The position numbers were made by a program, and so were the translations under genes. Positions 40,903-57,102 of a stretch of 64,000 nt of DNA are shown one piece after another (within the stretch, counting starts at the first letter, position 1; each line of letters begins with the position of its first letter). Origin of the DNA: Cellulomonas sp. Root485 (GTDB taxonomy: Bacteria; Actinomycetota; Actinomycetes; Actinomycetales; Cellulomonadaceae). The stretch covers positions 1,393,355-1,457,354 of the forward strand of contig NZ_LMFC01000001.1 in NCBI RefSeq assembly GCF_001426705.1, in the 5' to 3' direction. The notes beneath the pieces were generated by a model. The model did not search any database, was not told the DNA's origin, and worked only from the letters and a program-made list of their open reading frames with translations.

Positions 40903-40930
40903 TCACCCCGGTGGTTCTTCCTGCCGATTG
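40903..40930 (+). promoter_or_regulatory. Sigma-28-type promoter of pilB
   Basis: TCAC (40903-40906), 16 nt, then GCCGATTG (40923-40930). This matches the FliA/WhiG/SigD pattern with a -10 of GCCGAT. It starts 5 nt after the aroE stop; the leader to the pilB GTG is about 50 nt. One of five such sites in the pilus locus. Confidence 0.65.
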
Positions 40931-40987
40931 ATCCGGAGACACCCGTGCGGCCAGCAGTCGGCCGCCGGTTCGACCGGAGGGACACGC

Positions 40988-42664
40988 GTGAAGCAGCTCG
41001 GGGAGATCCTGCTCGACGACGGCCTCGTCACGGAGGCGCAGCTGCTTGCCGCGCTCGACGAGACGCTGGCCCGGGGAACGACGTTGGGGCGCACTCTGGT
41101 CGAGCTCGGGGTGCTCACGGAGTCCCAGCTGGTCAAGGCCCTCGCCAACCAGGTCGGCATGGCGTTCGTCGACCTCGACGACTACCCGGTCGACCGCACC
41201 GCCGTCAGCCTGGTGCCGGGCGCGCTGTGCCGTCGCTACTCGGTCCTGCCGGTCGCGCTCGAGGGCGGGTCGATCGTGCTCGCGACGTCCGACCCCGGCA
41301 ACGTCATGGCCGTCGACGACGTGCGCTCGGTATCAGGCATGTCCGTGATCCCGGTCATCGCCACGCACGACAACCTGCTGCGCGCGATCGACCGCTTCTG
41401 CCGCGCCGACGACGAGATGGAAGATCTGTCGCAGGCGTTCGAGGATGCCGACGCCGAGGTCGAGGCCGACCTCAGCAAGATGGCGGAGATCGGCAACGAG
41501 GACGCCCCGATCGTCCGCTTCGTCAACCTGCTGGTCACCCAGGCGATCACCGACCGGGCCTCGGACATCCACATCGAGCCGTCCGAGAAGGACCTGCGCG
41601 TCCGCTACCGCATCGACGGCGTGCTGCACGAGACCCAGCGCGCCCCCAAGCAGATCACCGGCGGCGTCATCAGTCGCGTGAAGATCATGAGCGACATCGA
41701 CATCGCGGAGCGGCGCAAGCCGCAGGACGGCCGCATGTCCGTGGTGCACAACGGTCGCAAGATCGACCTCCGGGTGGCCACGCTGCCGACCGTGTGGGGC
41801 GAGAAGATCGTCATGCGAATCCTCGACAACTCCACCGCGAGCCTCGACCTGCGGGACCTGTCGTTCCTCGACTCCAACTACGAGGTGTACCGCGAGTCGT
41901 ACACCAAGCCGTACGGGATGATCCTGGTGACCGGTCCGACCGGTTCGGGCAAGTCGACCACGCTCTACGCCACGCTGAACGCGGTATCGAAGCCGGAGAT
42001 CAACGTCATCACGGTCGAGGACCCGGTCGAGTACCGCCTCGCCGGCATCAACCAGGTCCAGGTGAACCCGAAGGCGGGACTGACGTTCGCCGGGGCGCTC
42101 CGGTCGATCCTGCGGTCCGACCCCGATGTCGTCCTCCTGGGTGAGATCCGCGACCACGAGACCGCGCAGATCGCCATCGAGGCGGCCCTGACCGGTCACC
42201 TCGTGCTCTCCACGCTGCACACCAACGACGCCCCGTCGGCGATCACCCGCCTGACGGAGATGGGGATCGAGCCGTTCCTCGTCGGGTCCGCGCTGGACGC
42301 CGTCGTCGCCCAGCGGCTCGCGCGCAAGCTCTGCGAGAAGTGCAAGGAGCCGTACACACCCACGCCGCAGGAACTCCTGGCTGCCCGGTTCCCCTGGGTC
42401 GACGGGGAGCCGCTACCGGAGCTCATGCGCCGCGTCGGCTGTGTGACCTGCTCCAAGACCGGGTACCGCGGACGGCTGGCCCTCCACGAGGTCATGCGGG
42501 TCACCGAGGAGATCGAGCGGCACGCGGTCGCCCACTCGTCGTCCGCCGACATCGCCGCGACCGCCATGAAGCAGGGCATGATCCCGCTCCGCGACGACGG
42601 GTGGCACAAGGTCGCGCTCGGCCAGACCTCCATCGAGGAGATCCTGCGCGTCGTCGTCACGTAG
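40988..42664 (+). CDS. pilB: Type IV pilus assembly ATPase PilB, with MshEN N-terminus
   Basis: A 558-aa GspE-family extension motor for pilus assembly at the cytoplasmic membrane. Two MshEN-type repeats occupy residues 2-55 (QLGEILLDDGLV..., TLGRTLVELGVL...), a fold that binds c-di-GMP in related ATPases. The motor has Walker A GPTGSGKSTT (about 319), acidic boxes, Walker B VVLLGEIRD and the His box STLHTND. A tetracysteine zinc site is seen (CEKC at about 453, CVTC at about 490). GTG at 40988 has GGAGGG 7 nt upstream. A sigma-28-type promoter precedes it. Confidence 0.93.
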   Translation: MKQLGEILLDDGLVTEAQLLAALDETLARGTTLGRTLVELGVLTESQLVKALANQVGMAFVDLDDYPVDRTAVSLVPGALCRRYSVLPVALEGGSIVLATSDPGNVMAVDDVRSVSGMSVIPVIATHDNLLRAIDRFCRADDEMEDLSQAFEDADAEVEADLSKMAEIGNEDAPIVRFVNLLVTQAITDRASDIHIEPSEKDLRVRYRIDGVLHETQRAPKQITGGVISRVKIMSDIDIAERRKPQDGRMSVVHNGRKIDLRVATLPTVWGEKIVMRILDNSTASLDLRDLSFLDSNYEVYRESYTKPYGMILVTGPTGSGKSTTLYATLNAVSKPEINVITVEDPVEYRLAGINQVQVNPKAGLTFAGALRSILRSDPDVVLLGEIRDHETAQIAIEAALTGHLVLSTLHTNDAPSAITRLTEMGIEPFLVGSALDAVVAQRLARKLCEKCKEPYTPTPQELLAARFPWVDGEPLPELMRRVGCVTCSKTGYRGRLALHEVMRVTEEIERHAVAHSSSADIAATAMKQGMIPLRDDGWHKVALGQTSIEEILRVVVT

Positions 42665-42686
42665 GTACTTGGCGCGTGCTCGTGCC

Positions 42687-42714
42687 TCAAGTCGGGCATC
42701 CGCACCGCCGATGA
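42687..42714 (+). promoter_or_regulatory. Sigma-28-type promoter of pilT
   Basis: TCAA (42687-42690), 16 nt, then GCCGATGA (42707-42714), the best of the five pilus-locus sites. It starts 23 nt after the pilB stop. Transcription near 42721 would place the 16-bp hairpin at 42731-42764 in the pilT 5' UTR. Confidence 0.75.
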
Positions 42715-42730
42715 ATTGTCCAGAACGAAG

Positions 42731-42764
42731 GCCTGGTACCGGCACGTCCGTGCCGGTACCAGGC
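42731..42764 (+). other. Perfect 16-bp hairpin in the pilT 5' UTR
   Basis: GCCTGGTACCGGCACG and its exact reverse complement are separated by only TC, giving 16 bp, or 15 bp with a GTCC loop. No T-run follows, so it is unlikely to be a simple terminator. The pilT ribosome-binding site GGAGGGA begins 10 nt after it (42774). Possible roles are mRNA stability, an operator for a dimeric regulator, or a translational control element. Confidence 0.85.
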
Positions 42765-42785
42765 CGACCACGTGGAGGGAATGAC

Positions 42786-44441
42786 GTGAGCGAGAACTAT
42801 CAGGCACCCGCGGGGGAGCCCTCGCGGCCGTTGCCGCCCTACCGACCCGTCGGGCCGCAGGCGGGAGCGCCGGCGATGTTCTCGCCGATCCCCTCGCAGA
42901 GCACGGCGCCGCCGGCCCCGACCGCTCCGCCGGCGTACCAGTCGCAGCCGACACCGCCGCCGTACCAGTCGCAGCCGACACCGCCGCCGTACCAGTCGCA
43001 GCCGACACCGCCGCCATACCAGGCGCAGGCCCCGGCCGTGCCCAGTGCTACATACCAGCCGGGTCCGTCCGCGCCGCCGTCCTACGGGGCGCCCGGGCAG
43101 CCGACCTCTTTCTCCCCGCAAGCACCGGGTACCACCTCCGTGGCCGGTGCGAGGACGTTCATGCCCGCAGCACCCGCGGCTGCCGCGCCTGCTCAGGTCC
43201 CGACGCCGCAGCCGCCGGCTGCGCCCAGCGAGCGTCCCGCCGCTCCGGCCCGCGACCGGGCGCAGCGCCGCGGGATGGGTCAGGAGCAGCAGGAGGGCGA
43301 CCTCCCGATCGACGAGATCCTTACCGAGATGGTGCGTGTCGGCGCCTCCGACGTGCACCTCACCACGGGGACGACGCCGATGGTGCGCATCAACGGCTCG
43401 CTCAAGGCTCTCGACGGTTTCGGGCAGGTGATGCCCGAGGGGCTGCGTCGGACCCTGTACGCGTTCCTGACGCAGAAGCAGCGCGAGAAGTTCGAGGCGA
43501 ACCTCGAGCTCGACCTGTCCTACTCCGTCCGGGGTCTGGCGCGGTTCCGCGTGAACATCTACCAGCAGCGCGAGTCGATCGGCGCCGCGTTCCGCGTGAT
43601 CCCCTACGAGATCAAGCCGCTCGAGGCGCTCGGCGTCCCGGCCGTGGTCGGTACATTCGCCGGCCTCCCCCGAGGCCTCGTCCTGGTGACCGGTCCGACG
43701 GGCTCGGGCAAGTCGACGACGCTGGCCTCGATCGTCGACCTGGCCAACCGCACCCGCGAGGACCACATCATGACGGTCGAGGACCCGATCGAGTTCCTCC
43801 ACCGGCACAAGAAGTGCGTGGTCAACCAGCGCGAGGTCGGGCAGGACACGCACTCGTTCCAGAGCGCCCTCAAGCATGTCCTGCGACAGGACCCCGACAT
43901 CATCCTGGTCGGCGAGATGCGTGACCTCGAGACGATCTCGGTGGCCCTGACCGCCGCCGAGACAGGTCACCTGGTCTTCGCCACGCTGCACACCCAGGAC
44001 GCCGCACAGACGATCGACCGCGTCATCGACGTCTTCCCCGCTCACCAGCAGGCACAGGTCCGCACGCAGCTGGCTGGCGCCATCCAGGGCGTCGTCTGCC
44101 AGACGCTGGCCAAGCGGTCGGACGCCCCGGGCCGCGCCGTGGCCACCGAGGTGCTCGTCGCGACCCCCGCCATCCGCAACCTGATCCGCGAGGGCAAGAC
44201 CCACCAGATCTACTCCGCCATGCAGGCGGGTGCCAAGCAGGGCATGCACACCATGGACCAGCACCTCTCGGAGCTGGTCAAGACCGGCAAGATCAGCTAC
44301 GAGACCGGACTGGAGAAGTGCCACCACGTGGAGGACTTCAACCGACTGACCGGCCGCTTCTCCGGCGGCTCGCAAGGCGCCGCCGGCATGGGTGACCAGG
44401 CAAGCATGGGTGGCGCCGCCTTCGGAAGCCAGGCCCACTGA
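42786..44441 (+). CDS. pilT: Type IV pilus retraction ATPase PilT, with Pro/Gln-rich N-terminal extension
   Basis: A 551-aa retraction motor. Residues 1-165 are a low-complexity P/Q/A-rich extension with three 9-residue repeats (YQSQPTPPP). The motor follows: PAS-like DEILTEMVRVGASDVHLTTG, Walker A GPTGSGKSTT (about 304), Walker B DIILVGEMRD, and the PilT signature AIRNLIREGKTHQ (about 461-473), which separates it from PilB. The C-terminus is Gly/Ala-rich. GTG at 42786 follows GGAGGGA. Its stop overlaps the pilC ATG by one base. Typical PilT is about 350 aa, so the extension is unusual and may dock other proteins. Confidence 0.94.
   Translation: MSENYQAPAGEPSRPLPPYRPVGPQAGAPAMFSPIPSQSTAPPAPTAPPAYQSQPTPPPYQSQPTPPPYQSQPTPPPYQAQAPAVPSATYQPGPSAPPSYGAPGQPTSFSPQAPGTTSVAGARTFMPAAPAAAAPAQVPTPQPPAAPSERPAAPARDRAQRRGMGQEQQEGDLPIDEILTEMVRVGASDVHLTTGTTPMVRINGSLKALDGFGQVMPEGLRRTLYAFLTQKQREKFEANLELDLSYSVRGLARFRVNIYQQRESIGAAFRVIPYEIKPLEALGVPAVVGTFAGLPRGLVLVTGPTGSGKSTTLASIVDLANRTREDHIMTVEDPIEFLHRHKKCVVNQREVGQDTHSFQSALKHVLRQDPDIILVGEMRDLETISVALTAAETGHLVFATLHTQDAAQTIDRVIDVFPAHQQAQVRTQLAGAIQGVVCQTLAKRSDAPGRAVATEVLVATPAIRNLIREGKTHQIYSAMQAGAKQGMHTMDQHLSELVKTGKISYETGLEKCHHVEDFNRLTGRFSGGSQGAAGMGDQASMGGAAFGSQAH
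42937..43017. repeat. Three 27-bp tandem repeats inside pilT
   Basis: Units start at 42937, 42964 and 42991 and encode YQSQPTPPP. The third differs only at its last base. The repeats lie in the disordered N-terminal extension and could change in number without breaking the frame. Confidence 0.92.
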
Positions 44442-45673
44442 TGGCCGGCGGGTCGAAGACGTTCGAGTACGCCGTCCGGGACAAGGGCGGCAAGATCGTC
44501 AAGGGTCGCGTCGAGGCGGTGAACCAGGCAGCCGTTGCCAACCGGCTGCGGGAGATGGGTCTCGCGGCCGTGTCGATCTCCGAGGTCAGCACCGGCGGGA
44601 TGAACGCCGAGATCAGCATCCCGGGCTTCGGCGGCAACAAGATCTCGCTCAAGGACCTGGCAATCATGTCCCGGCAGCTCTCGACCATGATCGACGCCGG
44701 GCTCTCGCTGCTGCGCGCGCTGACGATCCTTGCCGAGCAGACCGAGTCCAAGCCCTTGGCCAAGGTCGTCGCGCAGGTCCGCAACGACGTCGAGGTAGGC
44801 ACGGCGTTCTCGACGGCGCTCGGGAAGCACGCCGACGTCTTCCCGCCGCTCATGATCAACATGGTGAAGGCGGGCGAGGTCGGCGGCTTCCTCGACCAGA
44901 CCCTGATCTCGGTCGCCAACAACTTCGAGGCAGAGGTCAAGCTCCGCAACAAGATCAAGTCGGCGATGACCTACCCGGTCGTGGTCTTCATCATCGCGAT
45001 CCTGGCAACTGCGGGAATGCTGCTCTTCATCGTCCCCGTCTTCGCGGAGATGTTCGCCAACATGGGCGGAAAGCTTCCGTTGCCTACGCAGATCCTCATG
45101 TGGATGTCGCAGGCCCTGAAGATCCTCATTCTTCCGATGATCATCGCCTTTGTCGCCTTCTCGGTCTGGTGGGGAAAGCACAAGAACGACCGCGGAATTC
45201 GTGAGCGAGTGGACCCGTGGAAGCTCAAGGTGCCCGTTTTCGGGCAGTTGTTCCAGAAGATTGCCGTTTCTCGCTTCACGCGCAACTTCGGCACGATGAT
45301 CCATGCTGGCGTTCCGCTGCTGCAGGCGCTCGACATCGTCGGCGAGACGAGCGGAAACCTCGTGATCGAACGGGCCGCCAAGGCCGTCCAGGAGTCCGTG
45401 CGACGCGGAGAGTCACTGGCCGGGCCGTTGTCCCAGCACCCCGTCTTCCCTCCCATGGTGGTGCAGATGATGGCGGTCGGCGAGGACACCGGCGCCTTGG
45501 ACACGATGCTGGCCAAGGTCGCCGACTTCTACGACGACGAGGTCGAGTCCACGACGGAGCAGCTCACCAGCCTCATCGAGCCGCTCATGATCGTCGTCAT
45601 CGGCGCGATCGTCGGTGGCATGGTCATCGCGATGTACATGCCGATCTTCGGGGTCTTCGACCTCATCTCCTGA
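44441..45673 (+). CDS. pilC: Type IV pilus inner-membrane platform protein PilC
   Basis: A 410-aa GspF-family polytopic protein that couples the ATPases to pilin assembly. Two repeated T2SSF domains are present, each beginning near LSTMIDAGLSLLRAL (about 79-93) and FGTMIHAGVPLLQAL (about 283-297), with hydrophobic segments at about 180-210, 225-245 and 380-405. ATG overlaps the pilT stop. The second half uses more A/T-ending codons than its neighbours. A 19-bp terminator hairpin follows 8 nt after the stop. Confidence 0.95.
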   Translation: MAGGSKTFEYAVRDKGGKIVKGRVEAVNQAAVANRLREMGLAAVSISEVSTGGMNAEISIPGFGGNKISLKDLAIMSRQLSTMIDAGLSLLRALTILAEQTESKPLAKVVAQVRNDVEVGTAFSTALGKHADVFPPLMINMVKAGEVGGFLDQTLISVANNFEAEVKLRNKIKSAMTYPVVVFIIAILATAGMLLFIVPVFAEMFANMGGKLPLPTQILMWMSQALKILILPMIIAFVAFSVWWGKHKNDRGIRERVDPWKLKVPVFGQLFQKIAVSRFTRNFGTMIHAGVPLLQALDIVGETSGNLVIERAAKAVQESVRRGESLAGPLSQHPVFPPMVVQMMAVGEDTGALDTMLAKVADFYDDEVESTTEQLTSLIEPLMIVVIGAIVGGMVIAMYMPIFGVFDLIS

Positions 45674-45681
45674 CCTCAGCG

Positions 45682-45723
45682 CGACGCCGGGTGCCTGCTC
45701 GTCCGAGCAGGCACCCGGCGTCG
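45682..45723 (+). terminator. 19-bp perfect terminator hairpin after pilC
   Basis: CGACGCCGGGTGCCTGCTC pairs without a mismatch with its reverse complement around a GTCC loop. It isolates pilT-pilC from pilA. The C(GTCC)G apex is the same as in the pilT leader hairpin. Confidence 0.8.
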
Positions 45724-45811
45724 TCTCGCGTCTCAGGGCAGTGGTTCCAGGCACCGGTCGGTGGGTGCGCTGCTCCGATCGAGCGAATTAACAACTGGAT
45801 CGTCCAGGAGT

Positions 45812-45839
45812 TCAAGTCCCGAGCGATCCGAACCGATTC
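45812..45839 (+). promoter_or_regulatory. Sigma-28-type promoter of pilA
   Basis: TCAA (45812-45815), 16 nt, then ACCGATTC (45832-45839). It lies in the relatively A/T-rich gap after the pilC terminator. The leader to the pilA ATG is about 70 nt and includes a 5-bp hairpin (45858-45872). Confidence 0.65.
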
Positions 45840-45916
45840 TCGATCTGCATGACTGAACCGGCATCACGCCGGACTGACAGTGACCACGATTCCCCCTCAT
45901 GACCAGGGAGCACACA

Positions 45917-46360
45917 ATGATCGCTCGCATTCAGAAGTCGATGAAGGAGAAGGACCAGGGCTTCACCCTGATCGAGCTCCTCGTCGTGATGATCATCATC
46001 GGTATCCTCGCGGCCATCGCGATCCCGGTGTTCCTCAACCAGCGCAAGAAGGCCGTCGACACGTCGGCCAAGGCTGACGTCTCGACCATCGGCAAGGAGG
46101 TCGCCACCTGGTACGTGGACGGCGACTCGGCCACGCAGGTCGCCGTCGGCGGCGGCAACGGCTCGGACTACACCGTGGCGGCGCAGTCGATCGGGAACTC
46201 CAGCCCCAAGCTCGGCGTCCCGACGATCTCCTTCACCGCTGCCGCCGGTGGCGACATGTCGACCACGTGGTGCGTCACGCTCCCGGTCGACGCCGGTGCG
46301 GGCACGCTCACGAACGTCTTCTACTCCGCGGCGAACGGTCTCTCGACGACCGCCTGCTGA
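45917..46360 (+). CDS. pilA: Major type IV pilin PilA
   Basis: A 147-aa prepilin. The leader ends in KDQG, cleaved before FTLIELLVVMIIIGILAAIA (residues 16-35), with the conserved Glu at mature position 5. The globular part is small and has a Cys pair (WC near 115 and the C-terminal AC) that would close a D-region loop. ATG at 45917 is preferred because AGGGAG lies 6 nt upstream; ATG at 45899 is in frame but has no ribosome-binding site. It has its own sigma-28-type promoter and terminator, as expected for the most abundant subunit. Confidence 0.93.
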   Translation: MIARIQKSMKEKDQGFTLIELLVVMIIIGILAAIAIPVFLNQRKKAVDTSAKADVSTIGKEVATWYVDGDSATQVAVGGGNGSDYTVAAQSIGNSSPKLGVPTISFTAAAGGDMSTTWCVTLPVDAGAGTLTNVFYSAANGLSTTAC

Positions 46361-46379
46361 TTCCAGCACACGCCTGAGG

Positions 46380-46411
46380 CGTGGGGCGGGGGCACATGCC
46401 TCCGCCCCACG
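46380..46411 (+). terminator. Terminator after pilA
   Basis: CGTGGGGCGGGGGC pairs with GCCTCCGCCCCACG (14 bp, one G-U) and is followed by TCTTTGGGTTTGG, the most T-rich terminator tail in the window. Partial read-through would express the first minor-pilin trio at a lower level. Confidence 0.8.
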
Positions 46412-46489
46412 TCTTTGGGTTTGGTGCACCTGGTGGCAAGGCCAGCTGGCCCGCCACGCGGTGCCCGCACACGTACGACACCTGCGTTT

Positions 46490-46510
46490 CGCAGTTCCGC
46501 CGGAACTGCG
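46490..46510. promoter_or_regulatory. 9-bp inverted repeat before the first minor-pilin trio
   Basis: CGCAGTTCC and GGAACTGCG form a perfect palindrome around GCC, 14 nt before the ribosome-binding site of the first PilV-like gene. It could be an operator or an mRNA hairpin. No sigma-28-type promoter is found in this gap. Confidence 0.5.
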
Positions 46511-46535
46511 CTCCGGTCGTCGATGGGGAACAGAC

Positions 46536-47603
46536 GTGAGCAAGGGGTTCAGACAGCCCGCGCGGCGGGTCGACAGCGGCATGTCGCTGATCGAGGTCGT
46601 CATCGCGATGGTGGTCCTCGGCGCGATGTCGGTCGCCGTGATCGGCGTCATCATGAACACCCAGTCCCTCGGAGTGGCGAACCGCGCCCGGGTCGCTGCC
46701 TCGAACCTCGCTGCCCGTGACCTTGACATCGTGCGCGAGCAGTTCACCCGGTCACCGGCGTCGCCGATGGCCGTGGCCAACGCCGGTACGCAGGTCAACC
46801 CCAACCCGCTGCCCGGGCAGACCGCCGGACAGCCGATGGTCATGGACGGCAAGGCCTACACGCTGACGCGCACGGTCGCGTGGAACGTCACGGGGTCGGG
46901 TGCCTCCGCGTGCGACGGCGGGTCTCTCGTCCTGTACCCGACGCTCCGGGTCACGATCACCGTGACCTGGGCGGACATGGGCGCTGTGAAGCCGGTCGTC
47001 ACGAACGCCTCCCTCGCCCCGAAGAAGGACGACGGCGTCCAGGGCACCGCGTCGTTCGTCGCCGTGAAGGTGACCGACGCGGCCGGTGCGGCGAGCCCCG
47101 GTCGTGGCGTGCAGGTCTGGTCGGCCTCCGAGACGAAGAACGGAGTGACTGACACGTCCGGGTGCGCGGTCATCCAGGTCAGCCCCGGCGCAGCAGGCGC
47201 GACGTACGACGCCAGGGTCACCGACGCCGGCTACGTCGACCTCAGCGCCACACCGACCCCGACCAAGTCCGTCGGCATGGTCGCGACTGGCCAGCTCGTC
47301 AACAACGTCACCTTCGCCTACGACCGAGCGGGCTCGGTCACGCTCCACCTCGTCGACGAGAGCGGCGCCCCGGTTCCGCCCAGCGCGGTCGTCGGTGGCC
47401 AGATCACGTTGGTCGCCTCGGAGTTCTCGGGGGCCAGCGGGGCCCGTACGGTGCCTGCGACGGCGTCGGACATCACGGTCACGGGGCTGTGGCCGACCCT
47501 CTACGGGGCCCACCCGGGGACGACGCCACCGGCCACCGGCTACACGACCACCCCACTGCCGGCCGGCGGCTCCGTGGACATCGATGTGGTGGTGACCCCG
47601 TGA
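46536..47603 (+). CDS. Minor pilin, PilV-like, with Ig-like/carboxypeptidase-regulatory C-terminus (trio 1)
   Basis: A 355-aa prepilin-like protein. The leader ends in DSG before MSLIEVVIAMVVLGAMSV (about 16-33), with Glu5 kept. A PilV-like region to about residue 150 is followed by two beta-rich units that resemble carboxypeptidase-regulatory/invasin-type domains (FVAVKVTDAAGAASPGRGVQV, about 170-190, and SVTLHLVDESGAPVPPSAVV, about 267-286). Such domains on a pilus tip suggest adhesion. GTG at 46536 follows GGGGAA. Its stop overlaps the next start (GTGA). It probably depends on read-through from pilA. Confidence 0.8.
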   Translation: MSKGFRQPARRVDSGMSLIEVVIAMVVLGAMSVAVIGVIMNTQSLGVANRARVAASNLAARDLDIVREQFTRSPASPMAVANAGTQVNPNPLPGQTAGQPMVMDGKAYTLTRTVAWNVTGSGASACDGGSLVLYPTLRVTITVTWADMGAVKPVVTNASLAPKKDDGVQGTASFVAVKVTDAAGAASPGRGVQVWSASETKNGVTDTSGCAVIQVSPGAAGATYDARVTDAGYVDLSATPTPTKSVGMVATGQLVNNVTFAYDRAGSVTLHLVDESGAPVPPSAVVGGQITLVASEFSGASGARTVPATASDITVTGLWPTLYGAHPGTTPPATGYTTTPLPAGGSVDIDVVVTP

Positions 47604-48352
47604 CGCCGCACCGCGCCGCGGACGATCGCGGTACCTCGATCACGGAGCTCCTGATCAGCATGATGCTCCTCGCGGTGGTCATCGCGACCACCGCGACGAT
47701 GACCATCAGCTTCCAGCGCACGAACAGCCAGAACATCGCCCGGCAGGACCAGATCGACGTGGCTCGATCGGCGACCGAGCGGATCACCAAGACGATCAGG
47801 ACGGCGATCAAGCCGAGCCAGCTGCCCGGGTGTACGGCAACGGCGTGCGATGTCGACGCGTTCATCTCGGCGAGCCAGACGAGCATGCAGTTCTACGCGA
47901 ACCTGCAGAACGCCTCGAACCTCGTCGGTCCCCGACGCGTGACCTACTCGCTGGCGACCACCGGTCCCGACGCCGGAAAGCTTGTCGAGAAGGTCCAGGT
48001 GCCCGACTCGGCAACTCCCGGGGCCGCGGGGTACGTGTACTGCAACGCCGAGCTCGCGGGCGCTTCCGCCGCCTGTAAGGCGCGCCTGACCGTGCGGACG
48101 CTCGCGAAGGGGGTGCTGTCGTCCGGTTCGCAGCCCCTGTTCCGCTACTTCGGGACCACGGGCGCCGAGCTCCCGCTGACGCCAGGCGTGCCCCTGACCG
48201 CAGCCCAGATCGAGGAGGTCCTCTCGGTCGAGATCCTCGTCAAGGTCCAAAGCCCGAGCCCATCACGACCCAAGCCGACCACGTACATCCAACGCGTGCT
48301 CCTTCCCAACACCCAGGCCGTACTTCGCAACGATGTGGGGGCGACGCCATGA
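47600..48352 (+). CDS. Minor pilin, PilW-like (trio 1)
   Basis: A 250-aa prepilin-like protein. The leader ends in DRG before TSITELLISMMLLAVVIATT (about 12-31), with Glu5 present. The remaining 200 residues are polar and contain a few cysteines. The GTG start overlaps the PilV-like stop and its stop overlaps the PilX-like ATG. The name is based on order (V-W-X) and the N-terminal helix; the rest is too divergent for a sure match. Confidence 0.78.
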   Translation: MTPHRAADDRGTSITELLISMMLLAVVIATTATMTISFQRTNSQNIARQDQIDVARSATERITKTIRTAIKPSQLPGCTATACDVDAFISASQTSMQFYANLQNASNLVGPRRVTYSLATTGPDAGKLVEKVQVPDSATPGAAGYVYCNAELAGASAACKARLTVRTLAKGVLSSGSQPLFRYFGTTGAELPLTPGVPLTAAQIEEVLSVEILVKVQSPSPSRPKPTTYIQRVLLPNTQAVLRNDVGATP

Positions 48353-50217
48353 GGCGCCGACAGGTTCTCTTCTCGGCTCTGCGTCCGCACCGGCAGCCTG
48401 ACGACGGTGCGGGGCTCGTGCTCGTGATCGGCTCGATGCTCATCCTCGCGATGCTGGCCGTGACTGCGCTGACCTACTCGATGAGCAGCCAGAAGTTCGC
48501 CCGGTACGACCAGGACTACGCCGCCGCCATGGCTGCGGCGCAGTCCGGCGTCGAGGACTTCATCAGCCGAATCAACCGCGACGACGCGTACGGCTACACC
48601 CCCGACTGCACCAACCCCGCCTGGAAAGGCAGCACCGGAACCAACCACTGCGGCTGGACGGCAACGACCGTGCCCGGGTGGTCGCCGGTCGTCCCGGGGG
48701 AGACCGGCCCGAAGGCGGCCTGGTTCCACTACTCGGTCGACAGCTCCGCGAGCGCCAGCGGTCAGTACAAGGTCGTGTCCACCGGTCGCGTGAACGACGT
48801 GTACCGCACGGTCGACGTGACGGTGGGCAAGGGCGGGTCCACCGACTACGTCTATTACACCGACTTCGAGTCCGCAGACCCTGCCAACGTGCAGGCCTAC
48901 CCGACCAAGCCCGTGAAGACGATCTGCGGCGGCCTCGGCAACAGCCTCGCCAAGTACTGGTGGCAGGGGCGATCGACGACGTCGCCCGCATGCAACGAGA
49001 TCCAGTTCATCGGTGGGGACGTGCTCGACGGGGAGGTCTTCACCAACGACACGATCCTCGCGAACGCGAACGGCAGCGGCGTCAAGCCGATGTTCACCAA
49101 GCAGGTCTGGACCGCGACGCCGTCGTGCGCGACCCCGGGCGCATCGAACTCGAACTGGGAGGACGCCTGCCTGCGTGCCGGAAGTGTCGCGAACTTCAAC
49201 AGCGTGAAGCCGCAGTACCACAAGGCGCTCTACCTGCCCGACTCCTCGGCGGCGTTCGTCGACCACCCGGGATGCCACTACTTCGGCGCGACGAGGATCA
49301 TCTTCAGCAACGACGGCTACATGCGTGTCTGGAACGCGAAGTCCGTGAACAACGACACGCCCCCGGTGGCGGTCCCGTTGCCCGGCGGCACGACGCCTGA
49401 CTGCGGCACGGTTGCACAGCTCAACGCCACGACCGGCTTCAAGACGCTGGTCCCGACCGAGATGGTCGTCTACGTCGCGCCGTCGACGGCCGTGAAGCGC
49501 CAGTGCTACGCGGGTGAGATCGGGGGAGAGTCGGGGTCGGCCCTGCCCTTGGGCACGTTCTCCGCGTCCAAGGCGGCCGGGCCGACCTCTGGCTCGGACA
49601 AGTACAAGGCCGACGCCAACATGCTCGAGGCGACCAAGTACTGCAACGAGGGCAACCTCTACGCCGAAGGCATCGTCAAGGGGCGCGTGACGCTCGCGGC
49701 CGCGCAGTCGATCGTGGTGACCGGTGACCTCGTCCTCGCCGGTGGTGCGAACGGGCCCGACATGCTTGGCCTCGTCGCCACCAACGCCGTCGAGATATTC
49801 CACCCGCGGGTCGGGGATGTGAAGGCGACGTCGTCGACCCCACGGAAGTGGGAGACGGAGACGGAGAACGACGCCGAGGACTCGACCTGGCCGAAGCGCT
49901 ACAAGGACCCGACCACCAACACCTTCGTACCGAGTGACGGGCTTCAGATCACGGGCTCGATCCAGACCTTGCAGCACTCGTTCCTCGTGCAGAAGTACGA
50001 CGTCGGGGGAAGCGCCGGCAACTTGATGGTGTGGGGGTCGATCGCCCAGCGGTGGCGCGGGATCGTCGGCAGGGGCTCGAACGGGTACATCAAGAAGTAC
50101 TCCTACGACCCGCGCCTGGTCTACTCGGCGCCGCCGTACTTCCCCAAGTGGGCAAATTCCAAGTACTCCGTCCGGTACAGCGGCGAGATCACCACGCCCA
50201 CGACGTCGAAGCCGTGA
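48349..50217 (+). CDS. Large PilX-like minor pilus protein (trio 1)
   Basis: A 622-aa protein. The N-terminus DDGAGLVLVIGSMLILAMLAVTAL (about 18-41, hydrophobic without Glu5) is like PilX proteins, whose N-terminal helix is inserted without the usual processing motif. It is followed by about 560 residues with many cysteines and repeats of G/V/N-rich beta strands (IQFIGGDVLDGEVFTNDTIL, GIVKGRVTLAAAQSIVVTGD), suggestive of a beta-helix. Canonical PilX is under 200 aa, so this is a major enlargement. The ATG overlaps the PilW-like stop. Likely exposed on or near the pilus tip. Confidence 0.78.
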   Translation: MRRRQVLFSALRPHRQPDDGAGLVLVIGSMLILAMLAVTALTYSMSSQKFARYDQDYAAAMAAAQSGVEDFISRINRDDAYGYTPDCTNPAWKGSTGTNHCGWTATTVPGWSPVVPGETGPKAAWFHYSVDSSASASGQYKVVSTGRVNDVYRTVDVTVGKGGSTDYVYYTDFESADPANVQAYPTKPVKTICGGLGNSLAKYWWQGRSTTSPACNEIQFIGGDVLDGEVFTNDTILANANGSGVKPMFTKQVWTATPSCATPGASNSNWEDACLRAGSVANFNSVKPQYHKALYLPDSSAAFVDHPGCHYFGATRIIFSNDGYMRVWNAKSVNNDTPPVAVPLPGGTTPDCGTVAQLNATTGFKTLVPTEMVVYVAPSTAVKRQCYAGEIGGESGSALPLGTFSASKAAGPTSGSDKYKADANMLEATKYCNEGNLYAEGIVKGRVTLAAAQSIVVTGDLVLAGGANGPDMLGLVATNAVEIFHPRVGDVKATSSTPRKWETETENDAEDSTWPKRYKDPTTNTFVPSDGLQITGSIQTLQHSFLVQKYDVGGSAGNLMVWGSIAQRWRGIVGRGSNGYIKKYSYDPRLVYSAPPYFPKWANSKYSVRYSGEITTPTTSKP

Positions 50218-50253
50218 CCGGTGCAGCCGTTCGGAGGTCATCGTCCGCCGGGC

Positions 50254-50281
50254 TCAAGTTCGAGCCTGCACGTGCCGTAGC
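50254..50281 (+). promoter_or_regulatory. Sigma-28-type promoter of minor-pilin trio 2
   Basis: TCAA (50254-50257), 16 nt, then GCCGTAGC (50274-50281). The -10 is imperfect after GCCG, but the upstream CTCAAGT and the spacing equal those of the other pilus sites. The leader to the GTG is about 75 nt. Confidence 0.5.
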
Positions 50282-50362
50282 GCCCTTGGAGCTCGGGTTC
50301 GCAGCAACGCTCCCGCACCGTCGGTGTGCGTCGACGAGGGTGCCTGAAAGGGTGGGTCTGCA

Positions 50363-52162
50363 GTGAGAGAACGTCTTCGTGGACGGATCGCAGGAGCAGA
50401 GCGGGATCGTGGCTTCACGCTGATCGAGGTCATCGTGGCGATGTTCGTCACCGTCGCCGTGATGCTGTCCCTGTCGTACTCGGTGATCTCCAGCCTCAAG
50501 ACGATCCAGCAGGCCCGGCAGCGCCAGACGGCCACCGCGCTCGCCACGCAGCAGCTGGAACGAGTGCGCGCGCTCCCGTACGACACGGTGACGCAGCCCA
50601 ACGCGACGATGGGCATCAAGACCGGTCTCCAGTACGTCACCACCGTCAGTGGGGTGCCCCGGTTCACGCCGCCGGCGTCCCTCCTGCCGAGCGTGTCCGA
50701 GCCGATGGTCGTCAACACCATCTCCGGGCAGTGGACCGACGAGCTGGTCAACGGCGTCACCTACCGGGTGCAGACCTACGTCACGAAGGCCACGGCCACG
50801 ACGTCGGGATCGCAGCCGTTCAACATCACCGCCGTCGTGCGGTGGAAGAGCACCGTCGTCCCCGCGGGTCGGGAGACCGCGCTGCGCTCGACGACCTTCT
50901 CTCCCGCGGGCTGTCTGTCCACGGCGACCAGCCCGTTCGCCGCCCCCTGCCAGGCGTACTTCACGGTGCGTGCGGGTGAGGCGTTGAGCGGCGTGACGGT
51001 CACGGACCCCCTCAACTCCTCTCTGCCGATGCTCGGACTGGACGCCTCGAAGCTCCAGCTCGACTTCGCGAGCACGTCGACGAACTTCCTCGTCGAGCAG
51101 ACGGCCAACGGCACGGCGGGTGCCGCGACATCCGGTGCAGCCCGGGTCGATGCGAGCACGACGGAGACCGGTGGAGAGTCCGTCGGTGTCGCCGTCGACT
51201 CCGACCCGTCATCGGTGCCCGCGCAGGCGCTCAGCGGGAACACCCCGGCACACTCCGCGAGCACGCTCACGACCTCCGGCTCTGCCGGCAGCCTGAGCCT
51301 GCGACCGTCGACCGCCGACTCCGGATCGTCGCGCGCCGCGATCTTCGCCGACACGGCGACGTGCGTCGGGGCATCGGGCACTTCGTTGACGACCGGGCCT
51401 GCGTCGATGCTGCGGCCGTGCGCGTCGTCCACGCTCCAGGCCGCAGGGTCGGCGGCGGCGCTCACCTACACGTCGCCCAGCGGGTCCCCTGTGACCATCG
51501 CTTCGTTCGGCACGGGCGGCGCACCGTCGCGCGCGGTGGCGGCGATCCTCGGCTCGAACAACGTCGGAGCCTGTGCGGCCGGCGGCAACGTGGACTGTGG
51601 GCACGCCGCCTCGTCTCGCTCCATCGGGACGACCGGGTTCGCCAGCTCATCGTTCGTGAACGCGCCCGCGGCATTCACACCGGGGAACGGTCTGTGGTCC
51701 GTGAGCGGGCTGCAGGAGTTCGTCCGCGCGGAGGAGGGGTACGGCGCAGGGACGTGGAACTTCACCAGGGCCGGCACCCTGACCGTCTGGAACGGCACCG
51801 GCTACACCACGGTCGACCTCTCCGCCTACCAGACCCCGGCCACGGGGACCGTCACGGCATCGGACACGTTCGACATCCCGCTCACCACGGTCGACTATGC
51901 GGACGTCTCGATCGACTACGAGGGGACGGTGACTGTCCAGCGGCCGAAGGTCGTCCGCATCCCCGCGACGCGGACCGGCCCACTGGCGACGATCTGCAAG
52001 ACCGACGCGTGCGAGACCTCGGTCGACGCGTCGGGATCCGTGACGTCGCAGGTGACGGTGACGATCCGCAGCGGTGCCACGGTGCTCACGTCCTTCGCCG
52101 TGGTCAGCGACCTCGGCGGCGTCACCGCCGACGCGACCTACAAGGCGGCCGCAAATGCGTGA
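50363..52162 (+). CDS. Large minor pilin, PilV-like (trio 2)
   Basis: A 599-aa prepilin-like protein. The leader ends in RDRG before FTLIEVIVAMFVTVAVMLSL (about 17-36), with Glu5 kept. The first 160 residues are PilV-like (ATQQLERVRALPYD). The remaining 400 residues are rich in S, T, A and G, with beta-like stretches, and no family is recognised. GTG at 50363 has AAAGGGTGGG upstream. It overlaps the PilW-like gene by 8 bases. It is the longest of the PilV-like proteins here and probably an exposed, surface-variable subunit. Confidence 0.8.
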   Translation: MRERLRGRIAGAERDRGFTLIEVIVAMFVTVAVMLSLSYSVISSLKTIQQARQRQTATALATQQLERVRALPYDTVTQPNATMGIKTGLQYVTTVSGVPRFTPPASLLPSVSEPMVVNTISGQWTDELVNGVTYRVQTYVTKATATTSGSQPFNITAVVRWKSTVVPAGRETALRSTTFSPAGCLSTATSPFAAPCQAYFTVRAGEALSGVTVTDPLNSSLPMLGLDASKLQLDFASTSTNFLVEQTANGTAGAATSGAARVDASTTETGGESVGVAVDSDPSSVPAQALSGNTPAHSASTLTTSGSAGSLSLRPSTADSGSSRAAIFADTATCVGASGTSLTTGPASMLRPCASSTLQAAGSAAALTYTSPSGSPVTIASFGTGGAPSRAVAAILGSNNVGACAAGGNVDCGHAASSRSIGTTGFASSSFVNAPAAFTPGNGLWSVSGLQEFVRAEEGYGAGTWNFTRAGTLTVWNGTGYTTVDLSAYQTPATGTVTASDTFDIPLTTVDYADVSIDYEGTVTVQRPKVVRIPATRTGPLATICKTDACETSVDASGSVTSQVTVTIRSGATVLTSFAVVSDLGGVTADATYKAAANA

Positions 52163-52823
52163 GCTACGGAGCCGCCTGCGGGACGCCCGCAGGCGTGCGG
52201 GCGACGACTCGGGCATGACCCTCACCGAGCTCCTGGTCTCGATGATCGTCTTCTCGATGTCGATGGCCCTGATCATGGGCGCGGTGACCGTGGTCGTCGG
52301 CATCACCAAGGAGGCGCAGGGCGCGTCCGACGCGGTGTTCGCGACGCGCCAGGCCCTCGCGACGATCGATCGGCAGGTGCGGTCGGGCAACGTCCTGTTC
52401 AGCCCCGCCGACGAGGTCGCCTACATCTCGACCTGTCAGGACCTGGGCACGAACAAGGGCTCCTGCATGCGCATCTTCACCCAGTCCAACGGTGACGAGA
52501 AGTGCGTCCAGTGGCAGATGGCCCCGGACGGAGCAGGGAGCGGCCTGTACAAGCTCCAGATGCGCAGCTGGGAGACGACCTGGCAGACCGGCGGCTCGGT
52601 CACCGGCTGGGGTGTCGTCGCGCGTGGTCTGACGATGTCCGACGCTCCGTTCGAGCTCGACGTCGGCGCGGGGAACATCTACGGCGAGCGACTGCTCAAG
52701 GTGCACCTCGTCGCACGCAACGCGGACACCGGCCGGGACGTCGCGATCGACGCGTCCATCTCGGGCCGCAACACCAGCTACGGCTACACGGGGAGCCAGT
52801 GCACCCCGGTCCCGCCGGTATGA
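52155..52823 (+). CDS. Minor pilin, PilW-like (trio 2)
   Basis: A 222-aa prepilin-like protein. The leader ends in DDSG before MTLTELLVSMIVFSMSMALI (about 21-40), with Glu5 present. The mature part contains four cysteines and a pilin-like helix (ATRQALATIDRQVRSGN). ATG at 52155 overlaps the PilV-like stop and its own stop overlaps the next ATG. Equivalent in place and size to the PilW-like gene of trio 1 although divergent in sequence. Confidence 0.8.
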   Translation: MRELRSRLRDARRRAGDDSGMTLTELLVSMIVFSMSMALIMGAVTVVVGITKEAQGASDAVFATRQALATIDRQVRSGNVLFSPADEVAYISTCQDLGTNKGSCMRIFTQSNGDEKCVQWQMAPDGAGSGLYKLQMRSWETTWQTGGSVTGWGVVARGLTMSDAPFELDVGAGNIYGERLLKVHLVARNADTGRDVAIDASISGRNTSYGYTGSQCTPVPPV

Positions 52824-54403
52824 CCCACACGGAAGGCGTGAAGACGATGATGCGCAGGCTTCTCCCGCGGCGTGACGAGGACGGTGTCGCGCTCGTCGCT
52901 GCGATGGCCGTCGTGATGCTTGTCGCCATGCTCATGGTGGTGACGGTGAAGATCGCGATGTCGGAGTCGACCGCGAGCGGACGTGACCGTCAGCGGTCCT
53001 CCGCCGTGTCCACGGCGGAGTCGAAGGTCGACACCCTCATGGCGCAGATCCAGTCGTCCGCCCCCAGCGCGCTGTCCTCCTTCTGCGGCACGCTGACCGG
53101 CACCGCCGACGTCGCGAGCGACGACTTCGCCACCGCGTCGACGGTCACCTACTACAAGCCGGACGGCGTCACCGAGGTGCCCTGCGCCTCGATCCCGACC
53201 ACGCAGGTGGGCTACGCCAAGATCCGCACGTCGGCGACGTCGGACGCGCTCGACAACACGTCGGCGGCGAAGCGGTCGGTCGAGAGCCTCGTGAGCCTGA
53301 CCCCGGCGTACGGCAACGACCTCGACAAGGCGATCTTCTCGAACTCGAACCTCACGATGTCGAACAAGACCGTGCTGACGAGCGCGTCGGGCACGCCCGA
53401 CGCCGACATCTACACCAACGGTGACTTCTACTGCCGGAACAACCAGGAGTTCCACGGATCGATCTACGCGCAGGGCTCGGTGTTCCTCGAGTCGCAGTGC
53501 ACCGTGTCGGTGGACGTCTGGGCCAAGGGCAAGGTGCAGATCACCAATCCGTCGGCGTCGATCGGCGGGCGCGTGCTGTCGTCGTCGAGCACGGTCAGCC
53601 TGGACAAGGCCGCGGTCGGTCAGCAGGCCCGTGCGGCCGGCGTGGTCACAGGGCAGGTGTGCGGAACGGCGGGCAAGTGCTTCTCCAACGTCGCCGTCGA
53701 CGCCCCGCCCACGGTGGCCTTCCCAGAGTTGATCTGGGACGCGGCCACGCAGGCGCAGTGGGCCGCTCACGGCTACACCAACGTCGTCACCTTCCCCCAG
53801 GGCATGTACACCTGCGGCCTGTACGGCGGCACGACCAAGGTCACCGGCCCCGACGGACACCCGGTCAGCCTCAACGGAAAGGCCGACGGCGTCGGCATGT
53901 GGCTCTACGAGAACTCGTGGAAGCTGAGCGGTCCGACGATCGTCATCAACACCTGCCCGACGAGCAAGATCATCCTGCAGGGTGTCGGGATCCTGATGAA
54001 CGACAACATCGTCCTGCTGTCCCGGGCCGGCATCCAGTTCACCAACAACTCGCAGATCAAGTCGGTGACCGGCACGGCGACCGCCGCCGACCCGAACCTG
54101 CTGTACTTCATCCAGCCCGCCAAGTACTACGGCGCGACCACAACCTGCTCGGGCGAGGGCATCTCGCTCGACAACCAGGTCTCGGTGGACAGCACGGTGA
54201 ACACCCTGCTCTACTCGCCGTGCGCGATCCGCAAGGCGAACCAGTCGACGATCGTTGGCCAGGTCTACTCGGGCTCGACCCTCTCGGTCGACAACCAGCT
54301 CGACATGGCATACGTGCCCCTGCCCGTCTGGGGCGGGATCGCGTCGCAGGCGTCTATCGACTCCTACTCGATCCAGATCCTCTACAAGCGCGAGTCCGCA
54401 TGA
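52820..54403 (+). CDS. Large PilX-like minor pilus protein with beta-helix-like repeats (trio 2)
   Basis: A 527-aa protein with an N-terminal hydrophobic helix DGVALVAAMAVVMLVAMLMV (about 21-40) of PilX type. The body contains bactofilin-like strands (IYTNGDFYCRNNQEFHGSIY, SVFLESQCTVSVDVWAKGKV, SIGGRVLSSSSTVSLDKAAV, about 195-275) and a second set near 480-515, suggesting a beta-helix. ATG at 52820 overlaps the previous stop; ATG at 52847, with GGAAGG 10 nt upstream, is a good alternative. It pairs with the 622-aa protein of trio 1. Confidence 0.78.
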   Translation: MTHTEGVKTMMRRLLPRRDEDGVALVAAMAVVMLVAMLMVVTVKIAMSESTASGRDRQRSSAVSTAESKVDTLMAQIQSSAPSALSSFCGTLTGTADVASDDFATASTVTYYKPDGVTEVPCASIPTTQVGYAKIRTSATSDALDNTSAAKRSVESLVSLTPAYGNDLDKAIFSNSNLTMSNKTVLTSASGTPDADIYTNGDFYCRNNQEFHGSIYAQGSVFLESQCTVSVDVWAKGKVQITNPSASIGGRVLSSSSTVSLDKAAVGQQARAAGVVTGQVCGTAGKCFSNVAVDAPPTVAFPELIWDAATQAQWAAHGYTNVVTFPQGMYTCGLYGGTTKVTGPDGHPVSLNGKADGVGMWLYENSWKLSGPTIVINTCPTSKIILQGVGILMNDNIVLLSRAGIQFTNNSQIKSVTGTATAADPNLLYFIQPAKYYGATTTCSGEGISLDNQVSVDSTVNTLLYSPCAIRKANQSTIVGQVYSGSTLSVDNQLDMAYVPLPVWGGIASQASIDSYSIQILYKRESA

Positions 54404-54431
54404 CGGCCGCCGGAACGGGAGCGATGACGAG

Positions 54432-55241
54432 GTGACCGCAGTGTCCGACGACCTCCTGGCTGTGTTCCTCATCCTCGGGGTCGGTGTTATCGGCTTGCTC
54501 ATCGGGTCGTTCCTGAACGTCGTCGTCTGGCGGGTGCCGCGCGGTGAATCCGTGGTGCACCCGCCGAGCGCGTGCCCCCGGTGCGGGCATTCCATCCGGT
54601 CGCGCGACAACCTGCCGGTGCTGTCGTGGCTGCTGCTGCGCGGCCGGTGCCGCGACTGCGCCGCCCCCATCTCGCCGCGCTACCCGCTCGTCGAGCTGGG
54701 GACGGGTGTCCTGTTCGCGCTGACGGCGTGGTTCGCCGGCCCGACCTGGATCCTGCCCGCGTTGCTCTACCTCGCGGCGATCTCGGTCGCGCTCGCGCTC
54801 ATCGACATCGACACCAAGCGGCTGCCCAACGCGATCGTGCTGCCCGCGTACCCGGTGTCGCTCGCCCTCCTGACCCTCGCCGCCTGGAATCCCGGGGGGA
54901 CGCCCGACTGGTCGGCGCTGCTGCGCGTGGTCATCGGTGGTGCGGCGCTGTACGCCGTCTACTTCGTGGCGGTCGTCGTGTACCCGGCAGGTATGGGCTT
55001 CGGGGACGTGAAGCTCGCTGGCGTGCTCGGCATGTACCTCGGTTGGTACGGCTGGGGTGCGCTCTTCGTGGGCTGGTTCGCCGCCTTCCTGCTGGGCGGG
55101 CTCTTCTCCGTCGCTCTGCTGCTCCTGGGCCGCGCCGGCCGCAAGTCCGGGATCCCTTTCGGTCCGTGGATGCTGCTGGGCGCCGCTGTCGGCATCGTCG
55201 CCGGTCAGCCGTTGTGGGACTGGTACCTCGGCGCTCTGTGA
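54432..55241 (+). CDS. pilD: Prepilin leader peptidase / N-methyltransferase PilD
   Basis: A 269-aa polytopic aspartyl protease that cleaves and methylates prepilins. The cytoplasmic methyltransferase loop has two CxxC pairs (CPRC at about 49-52 and CRDC at about 74-77). The catalytic aspartates lie in LIDIDTKRLPN (about 124) and MGFGDVKL (about 191). Eight hydrophobic segments fit the family. GTG at 54432 is used; GTG at 54441 is possible. It is 28 nt from the PilX-like gene and so part of the trio-2 transcript. Confidence 0.94.
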   Translation: MTAVSDDLLAVFLILGVGVIGLLIGSFLNVVVWRVPRGESVVHPPSACPRCGHSIRSRDNLPVLSWLLLRGRCRDCAAPISPRYPLVELGTGVLFALTAWFAGPTWILPALLYLAAISVALALIDIDTKRLPNAIVLPAYPVSLALLTLAAWNPGGTPDWSALLRVVIGGAALYAVYFVAVVVYPAGMGFGDVKLAGVLGMYLGWYGWGALFVGWFAAFLLGGLFSVALLLLGRAGRKSGIPFGPWMLLGAAVGIVAGQPLWDWYLGAL

Positions 55242-55276
55242 GCCGAGATTGCCCCGAGCGATTGCGGCACAAGGCC

Positions 55277-55304
55277 TCAAGTCGCACCCCGCGCCGCCCG
55301 ATAG
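55277..55304 (+). promoter_or_regulatory. Sigma-28-type promoter of pilMNO
   Basis: TCAA (55277-55280), 16 nt, then CCCGATAG (55297-55304). The upstream part GCCTCAAGTCG is identical to that of the pilT promoter. The leader to the pilM GTG is about 30 nt. Confidence 0.7.
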
Positions 55305-55341: not shown

Positions 55342-56406
55342 GTGGGTACCACACGCGTTATCGGGCTGGACATCGGCTCGTCGTGCGTCCGGGCTGCGGA
55401 GCTCGAGTTCGGGAGCGGCGGCCCGACGGGCAAGACGCCCCCGACGCTCGTGCGCTTCGGCCAGGTCGCCCTGCCGCTCGGTGCGGTCCGGGACGGCGAG
55501 GTCGTGCAGCCGGAGACGGTCTCGAGCGCGCTGCGGCAGCTCTGGGCCCAGGCCAAGTTCGAGTCCAAGGACGTCGTCATCGGCGTCGGCAACCAGCGCG
55601 TCGTCGTGCGTGAGCTCGACCTGCCGTGGATGCCGCTCGCCCAGCTCAAGGCGTCCCTGCCGTTCCAGGTGAGCGAGCTGCTCCCGATGTCGACCGACGA
55701 CGCCCTGCTCGACTACTTCCCGACGTCCGAGTTCGACGGGCCCCAGGGCCGCACGGTCAACGGGATGCTCGTGGCGGCGCAGCGCGACACGGTCAACGCG
55801 AACGTGATCGCGGTCGAGGGAGCGGGGCTCCGGCCTCGCATGGTCGACCTGAACGCGTTCGCTCTCACGCGCGCCCTGGCCCGCGGCGAGCTCGCGCGGT
55901 CGACGGCGGCTTTCGTCGACATCGGCGCGACGATCACGACCGTCGTCATCTCCGCCCAGGGATCTCCCCGCCTCGTGCGGTCGCTCCCCAGTGGCGGCCA
56001 GAACGTCACGGCGGCCGTCGCCAGCGCGCTCGGCATCGCCGGGGCAGAGGCTGAGGCGGTCAAGCGCGAGGTCGGCATCGGTTACGCCGTCGGACCCGAG
56101 CGGGCCGACGCGGCCGAGGCCATCAGCACGGTCGTGCGCGCTCTCGTCGAGTCGGTGCGCAACACCTTCGTCTACTACTCGAGCAACAACCCGGGCGCGG
56201 GGATCGACGTCTGCGTCCTCACCGGCGGCGGGTCGCACCTCCCGGGCCTCGGGCAGTACCTGTCGAGCGCGAGCCGCCTGCCGGTCACCCTCGGTGACCC
56301 GCTCGCCGGCCTGCGTTCCGCGAAGACCGTGCAGCGCGACGCGCTGAACGGGCACGAGTCGTTCATCGCCCTCCCCGTCGGGCTGGCCTACGGAGTTGCC
56401 GCATGA
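55342..56406 (+). CDS. pilM: Type IV pilus assembly protein PilM
   Basis: A 354-aa actin-like ATPase-fold protein of the cytoplasmic alignment ring that binds the PilN tail. The nucleotide-binding elements are VIGLDIGSSCVRAAEL (phosphate 1, about 6-21), AAFVDIGATITTVVI (phosphate 2, about 189-203) and VLTGGGSHLPGLGQYL (adenosine, about 292-307). GTG at 55342 follows GGAAGGA. The ATG of pilN overlaps its stop. A sigma-28-type promoter lies 38 nt upstream. Confidence 0.93.
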   Translation: MGTTRVIGLDIGSSCVRAAELEFGSGGPTGKTPPTLVRFGQVALPLGAVRDGEVVQPETVSSALRQLWAQAKFESKDVVIGVGNQRVVVRELDLPWMPLAQLKASLPFQVSELLPMSTDDALLDYFPTSEFDGPQGRTVNGMLVAAQRDTVNANVIAVEGAGLRPRMVDLNAFALTRALARGELARSTAAFVDIGATITTVVISAQGSPRLVRSLPSGGQNVTAAVASALGIAGAEAEAVKREVGIGYAVGPERADAAEAISTVVRALVESVRNTFVYYSSNNPGAGIDVCVLTGGGSHLPGLGQYLSSASRLPVTLGDPLAGLRSAKTVQRDALNGHESFIALPVGLAYGVAA

Positions 56407-57101: not shown

Positions 57102-57102
57102 C

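Follow-up and report, generated by a model that had tools for sequence, protein, structure and literature searches.

The type IV pilus (T4P) locus of Cellulomonas sp. Root485 lies in the 64 kb stretch of DNA analysed here (the window), part of a 4.65 Mb genome that is 99.99% complete. The genes are arranged in the order pilB, pilT, pilC, pilA, a first and a second trio of minor pilins, pilD, pilM and two more genes, and the locus is flanked by the genes for shikimate dehydrogenase and chorismate synthase (Table 1). Its closest counterparts are the pilus loci of Cellulomonas. The name pilC presumably applies to the frame following pilT, being taken from its position, and the first of the two genes at the pilN/pilO place gave no Pfam match. 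PilT carries a long N-terminal extension rich in proline and glutamine, with a short tandem repeat (window positions 42786–43260). The MshEN domain of PilB is also N-terminal (residues 57–142). Domains of this type are able to bind c-di-GMP, which could provide a direct input to the pilus motor.

Table 1. Genes of the T4P locus and predicted WhiG-type promoters in the window, with the score of each promoter element.
Feature	Position	Strand	Basis and remarks
Predicted WhiG-type promoter of pilB, TCAC / GCCGATTG	40903..40930	+	11.3 bits; predicted start about 40938
pilB, extension ATPase with MshEN domain	40988..42664	+	PF00437 and PF05157
Predicted WhiG-type promoter of pilT-pilC, TCAAGT / GCCGATGA	42687..42714	+	31.5 bits; predicted start about 42722; same place in relatives
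pilT, retraction-type ATPase	42786..44441	+	PF00437; start codon chosen by eye
pilC	44441..45673	+	open frame; pilC-like relatives at same place
Predicted WhiG-type promoter of pilA, TCAAGT / ACCGATTC	45812..45839	+	15.7 bits; predicted start about 45847
pilA, major pilin	45917..46360	+	PF07963 (N_methyl)
Minor-pilin trio 1	46581..50217	+	three called genes; name taken from the earlier note
Predicted WhiG-type promoter (weaker) of minor-pilin trio 2, TCAAGT / GCCGTAGC	50254..50281	+	9.6 bits; predicted start about 50289
Minor-pilin trio 2	50363..54403	+	three called genes; N_methyl in the first
pilD, prepilin peptidase	54432..55241	+	PF06750 and PF01478
Predicted WhiG-type promoter of pilM and its downstream genes, TCAAGT / CCCGATAG	55277..55304	+	28.0 bits; predicted start about 55312; same place in relatives
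pilM	55342..56406	+	PF11104
Two genes at the pilN/pilO place	56403..57918	+	called genes; names by position

An earlier note on this DNA had described five promoter-like elements in the gaps of the locus, and all five are present, each lying between called genes on the plus strand. Their spacing is identical as described, 16 bases separating TCA[A/C] from NCCG[A/T][A/T] at each site, and TCAAGT is common to four of them. The site before trio 2 has GCCGTA as its -10 and the lowest score of the five.

Counting matches is by itself a weak argument for these sites. The pattern TCAM-N17-CCGWT matches the window 5 times against 1.34 expected, a number reached in 1 of 100 shuffles, and it omits the site at 50254 while picking up position 38671, which scores below 8 bits with the matrix described next. 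This scoring matrix, trained on the pilT and pilM gaps of relatives, finds 13 places above an 8-bit cut in the window, compared with a mean of 8.1 in mononucleotide shuffles (here and in the unused-gap test below, shuffling preserved base composition only). The five intergenic places among the 13 are exactly the five sites, the other eight lying within called genes, in agreement with the earlier observation that the neighbouring housekeeping genes have no such site. Across the genome the pattern TCAAGT-N15-CCGW is not enriched (13 matches versus 15 for the reversed pattern), with 4 of the 13 falling inside the 14 kb of the pilus locus. The stricter TCAAG-N16-CCGAT occurs 11 times versus once for its reversed control, and in eight relatives it is found 4 to 12 times each versus 0 or 1.

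Related pilus loci were compared to determine whether the elements are kept, a check that the earlier note had proposed. From 76 loci 69 were used, L077 and L093–L098 having been dropped as labelled other phyla; gap positions come from tblastn, which may have put a few of those in fragment loci at the wrong place. Of 65 related loci, 64 retain the consensus CTCAAG-N16-CCGAT, with variants allowed, in their pilus-locus gaps. At least one match to T[ACT][ACG]AG-N16-CCGAT is present in 46/47 loci of Cellulomonadaceae type, in all 15 of Demequina and in all three of Rarobacter, KH10 and Timonella, and the pattern is absent from the pilus gaps of the Okibacterium/Mycetocola loci (0/4). As these four siteless loci all belong to one group, they may represent a single event. 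In Demequina and Timonella the forms of the element include TAAAGT / GCCGATAA. The spacing is equally constrained. In the 261 gaps of the 69 loci, counted without four gaps of fragment loci, TCAA-N17-CCGA[AT] occurs 99 times, the same blocks with N16 occur 7 times, each other spacing from 8 to 25 is represented at most 3 times, and the opposite strand contains no match to the N17 form.

A matrix with no training on the pilB, pilA and trio 2 gaps was then applied to these at a 1% threshold, which was passed by 48/64 pilB gaps, 43/64 pilA gaps and 6/17 upstream regions of trio 2 homologues; these six passes are from the six loci where the second trio is preceded by a first one. By group, the pilB gap passes in 40/43 Cellulomonadaceae-type loci, 7/14 of Demequina, 1/3 of Rarobacter/KH10/Timonella and 0/4 of Okibacterium/Mycetocola; the corresponding values for pilA are 38/44, 1/13, 3/3 and 1/4. 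The last of these is the pilA gap of L081, which lies above the threshold at 6.7 bits in a genome where no WhiG was found.

The genome encodes a sigma-28-class factor, as had been anticipated; it is of the WhiG kind and distinct from the sigmas that flagellate relatives encode near flhA. A single protein exceeds the FliA/WhiG cut-off (TIGR02479; 266.1 bits against 189.6), and the next match, at 113.6 bits, falls under it. The gene is located between dprA (PF02481) and rpsB (PF00318), with an M23 peptidase gene (PF01551) as a further neighbour; the order dprA-whiG-rpsB is also that of Streptomyces. Its product is 99% identical to that of Cellulomonas sp. Leaf334 (the genome of L024), and the best solved relative is Streptomyces WhiG (PDB 6pfj, 6pfv; 304.9 bits). 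Sporulation is not known in Cellulomonas. In a midpoint-rooted tree, from which L126 (one stop) and L193 (a fragment) were left out, 48 WhiG rows group together with support of 99/96, including the Root485 sigma and with S. venezuelae WhiG inside the clade. The 12 second sigmas, near flhA in flagellate relatives, form a separate group (100/100). The FliA of PDB 9wsm falls with the WhiG rows, although its branch is long, so that the second sigma is called flagellar here because of its nearness to flhA. One relative (G006) has two sigmas over the cut-off (L124, L195), both in the WhiG clade.

Sigma factors and FlhA were searched for in genomes representing 50 of the 69 loci, chosen by the authors. 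WhiG exceeds the cut-off in 46, and a fragment at the end of a contig in G012 makes 47; no WhiG was found in G043, G044 and G045, one Okibacterium and two Mycetocola genomes that account for three of the four loci of that group. The pilus-gap element is present in 47/47 of the genomes with WhiG (in one of them a WhiG fragment) versus 0/3 of those without. A second sigma, scoring 154 to 184 bits, is encoded in 28 of the 50 genomes; a strong FlhA match is likewise present in 28, and 27 genomes have both. The remaining cases are G022, with a second sigma and no FlhA match, and G043, with FlhA and a best sigma of only 113 bits; a second sigma is lacking in G002, whose two FlhA matches are weak (61.5 and 30.6 bits). 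Where a flagellate genome has both genes on one retrieved contig, the second sigma lies 21 to 29 kb from flhA (nine genomes, G043 excepted).

The earlier note had further proposed that the pili belong to a motility-sigma regulon and are switched on together with flagella. The two flagellar families that were searched, flagellin (PF00669) and FlhA (PF00771), are both without a match in the Root485 genome, and a switch shared by pili and flagella does not fit this result; joint control was accordingly rejected for this organism. Likeness to sigma-28-class promoters, conservation and a sigma of that class are the parts of the proposal that held, and a regulon that also turns on flagella is the part that did not. 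The grouping of the sigma with Streptomyces WhiG and the promoter-like sites of the relatives' flagellar clusters also speak against joint activation. In 368 kb around the second sigma and flhA of 11 genomes (G022 and G043 included), CT[ACT]A-N16-GCCGAT[AG] has 21 matches, not every one of which need be a promoter, while N17 has none and no other spacing between 10 and 21 has more than 2. Written in the same way, the element of the pilus gaps reads CTCA-N17-NCCGAT, most often with AG following CTCA, and the spacer of the flagellar clusters is thus shorter by one base. The pilus-type element is found in this flagellar DNA once when any following base is allowed and is absent when A or G is required. 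The split is not absolute, since the shorter spacing is carried by the 7 T4P-gap sites counted above and a TCAAG-type site at that spacing is present in one flagellar cluster. Genome-wide, CTCA-N16-GCCGATRG occurs 6, 5, 6, 8, 5, 4, 6, 5, 8 and 3 times in ten genomes with an FlhA match versus 4, 1, 2, 1, 4 and 2 times in six without (Mann–Whitney p 0.0037).

Sites of the strict form are also found outside the pilus locus. Three of the 11 in the Root485 genome belong to the locus, and one each precedes an unlinked second pilT (PF00437), a LuxR/GerE-type regulator and a VanY-type peptidase. Three more precede genes of unclear function, and two lie in coding sequence (one according to the gene caller, one by reading of the open frame). 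The site before the second pilT is present in 9/9 genomes and that before the LuxR-type regulator in 8/9. Together with 75 from the eight relatives there are 86 strict sites; 77 were examined for their context, nine being unfetched or identical repeats, and 7 of the 77 are within genes according to the gene caller. An ATG or GTG stands at +35 from the first T in 25 of the 77, compared with 0 to 8 at any other offset between 30 and 40; the second pilT and LuxR-type regulator families supply 15 of the 25, and one of the 25 is a frame of 18 residues. The second pilT begins with GTG at precisely +35 in 9/9 genomes, and the regulator shows the same distance in 6/8. A start codon at this fixed position would fit a leaderless transcript. 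Three relatives have a WhiG-type site in front of a camelysin-like protein (L255 353–1033, matching PF12389, and the similar sequences L258 and L199), perhaps a surface or matrix protein.

The genome has four GGDEF matches, one in a protein that also contains EAL. No site above 9 bits was found before any of the four genes, and a c-di-GMP feedback acting through their promoters was rejected on this ground. One GGDEF gene lies just past the end of the window, with its start about 8 kb beyond the pilus genes (L266 215–2428, minus strand) and no WhiG-type site in front; Rubrobacter likewise has a gene for a c-di-GMP enzyme close to its pilus cluster (PMC8325347). Two further intergenic matrix matches (L267 4454, plus strand, 18.7 bits, and 6465, minus strand, 15.9 bits) are near, not before, the GGDEF-EAL gene. 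Given the four GGDEF genes and the MshEN domain of PilB, c-di-GMP is a plausible input to the WhiG switch.

Taken as a pattern of sequence, the five sites are very probably promoters for a WhiG-type sigma of the sigma-28 class, and the T4P locus a WhiG regulon read in several units. The best reading is a WhiG pilus regulon, not one joining pilus and flagellum. Chance resemblance in GC-rich gaps might be suspected from the loose pattern, which reaches only about four times its expectation in the window. It was already unlikely for pilT, pilA and pilM, and was rejected as hardly credible on the matrix scan of the window, the presence of the elements in related loci, the passes on unused gaps and the spacing count. 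Two conserved blocks at a fixed distance could equally be a protein-binding site, so that the element might consist of two half-sites for another transcription factor. This is improbable, however, as neither block is a repeat of the other, the element has a single orientation, start codons stand at the fixed +35, and the TAAAGT / GCCGATAA forms are near the flagellar consensus given in PMC8325347.

It is a little harder still to credit that a flagellar motility sigma reads the sites and turns on pili and flagella together. The element does resemble the sigma-28 consensus, PMC8325347 states that WhiG-like flagellar sigmas direct both gene sets in Actinoplanes, and cross-talk between the two sigmas may occur in flagellate relatives. 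Nevertheless, WhiG is kept in 20 of the 22 relatives without a strong FlhA match, and both the lack of flagellin and FlhA matches in Root485 and the shorter flagellar spacer count against it.

Under the preferred WhiG reading, RNA polymerase carrying WhiG would bind at the five sites and start transcription about 35 bases from the first T. The predicted transcription units are pilB; pilT-pilC; pilA with trio 1; trio 2; and pilM with the genes after it, and the polymerase would most likely transcribe these together with the second pilT. The LuxR-type regulator may pass the signal on. WhiG would be held inactive by an anti-sigma factor and released when a signal changes, possibly c-di-GMP, the signal in Rubrobacter and Streptomyces. 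The second sigma near flhA in flagellate relatives would read flagellar sites of the form CTCA-N16-GCCGAT, separated by one spacer base from the WhiG sites.

Control of type IV pili by WhiG has been reported before. In Rubrobacter, WhiG with RsiG has this role, start sites are mapped, and five promoters precede c-di-GMP enzymes (PMC8325347). Rubrobacter and Root485 are both unicellular actinobacteria with WhiG-type promoters in several units of the pilus cluster; they differ in the -35 (TAAA versus CTCAAG) and in the promoters before c-di-GMP enzymes, which Root485 lacks before its GGDEF genes, and unlike Rubrobacter many relatives of Root485 have a second sigma near flhA. Actinoplanes missouriensis is likewise an actinomycete whose pilus genes are under sigma-28-class control, but PMC8325347 and PMC13293333 give it flagella and three FliA-family sigmas, whereas Root485 has one such sigma and no flagellin or FlhA match. 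For WhiG of Streptomyces, which shares the clade of the Root485 protein, the role described in PMC8325347 is sporulation. Among the matches listed in a literature search, with subscription literature mostly outside its scope, no title or abstract opening reports WhiG control of pili in Cellulomonas or its kin, and the passages of a Micrococcus paper (PMC8467076) that were available contain nothing on a pilus sigma. The reach of WhiG-pilus control into the Cellulomonadaceae, Demequina and their kin, and the split of two sigmas by one base of spacing, look new.

These results carry the link between WhiG and pili from Rubrobacter to the Cellulomonadaceae, Demequina and kin, and this extension raises the possibility that pili, not spores, were what WhiG controlled first. 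Somewhat short of an even case can be made that pilus control is an old and widespread task of WhiG in Actinobacteria, with sporulation coming later, and that organisms owning both WhiG and a flagellar sigma separate the two programmes mainly by one base pair of spacer and the AG after the -35. The pilus locus, the second pilT, the LuxR-type regulator and the VanY-type peptidase together constitute a regulon that can be tested, and the flagellate relatives provide a naturally occurring pair of related sigmas with promoters that seem to lie one spacer base apart.
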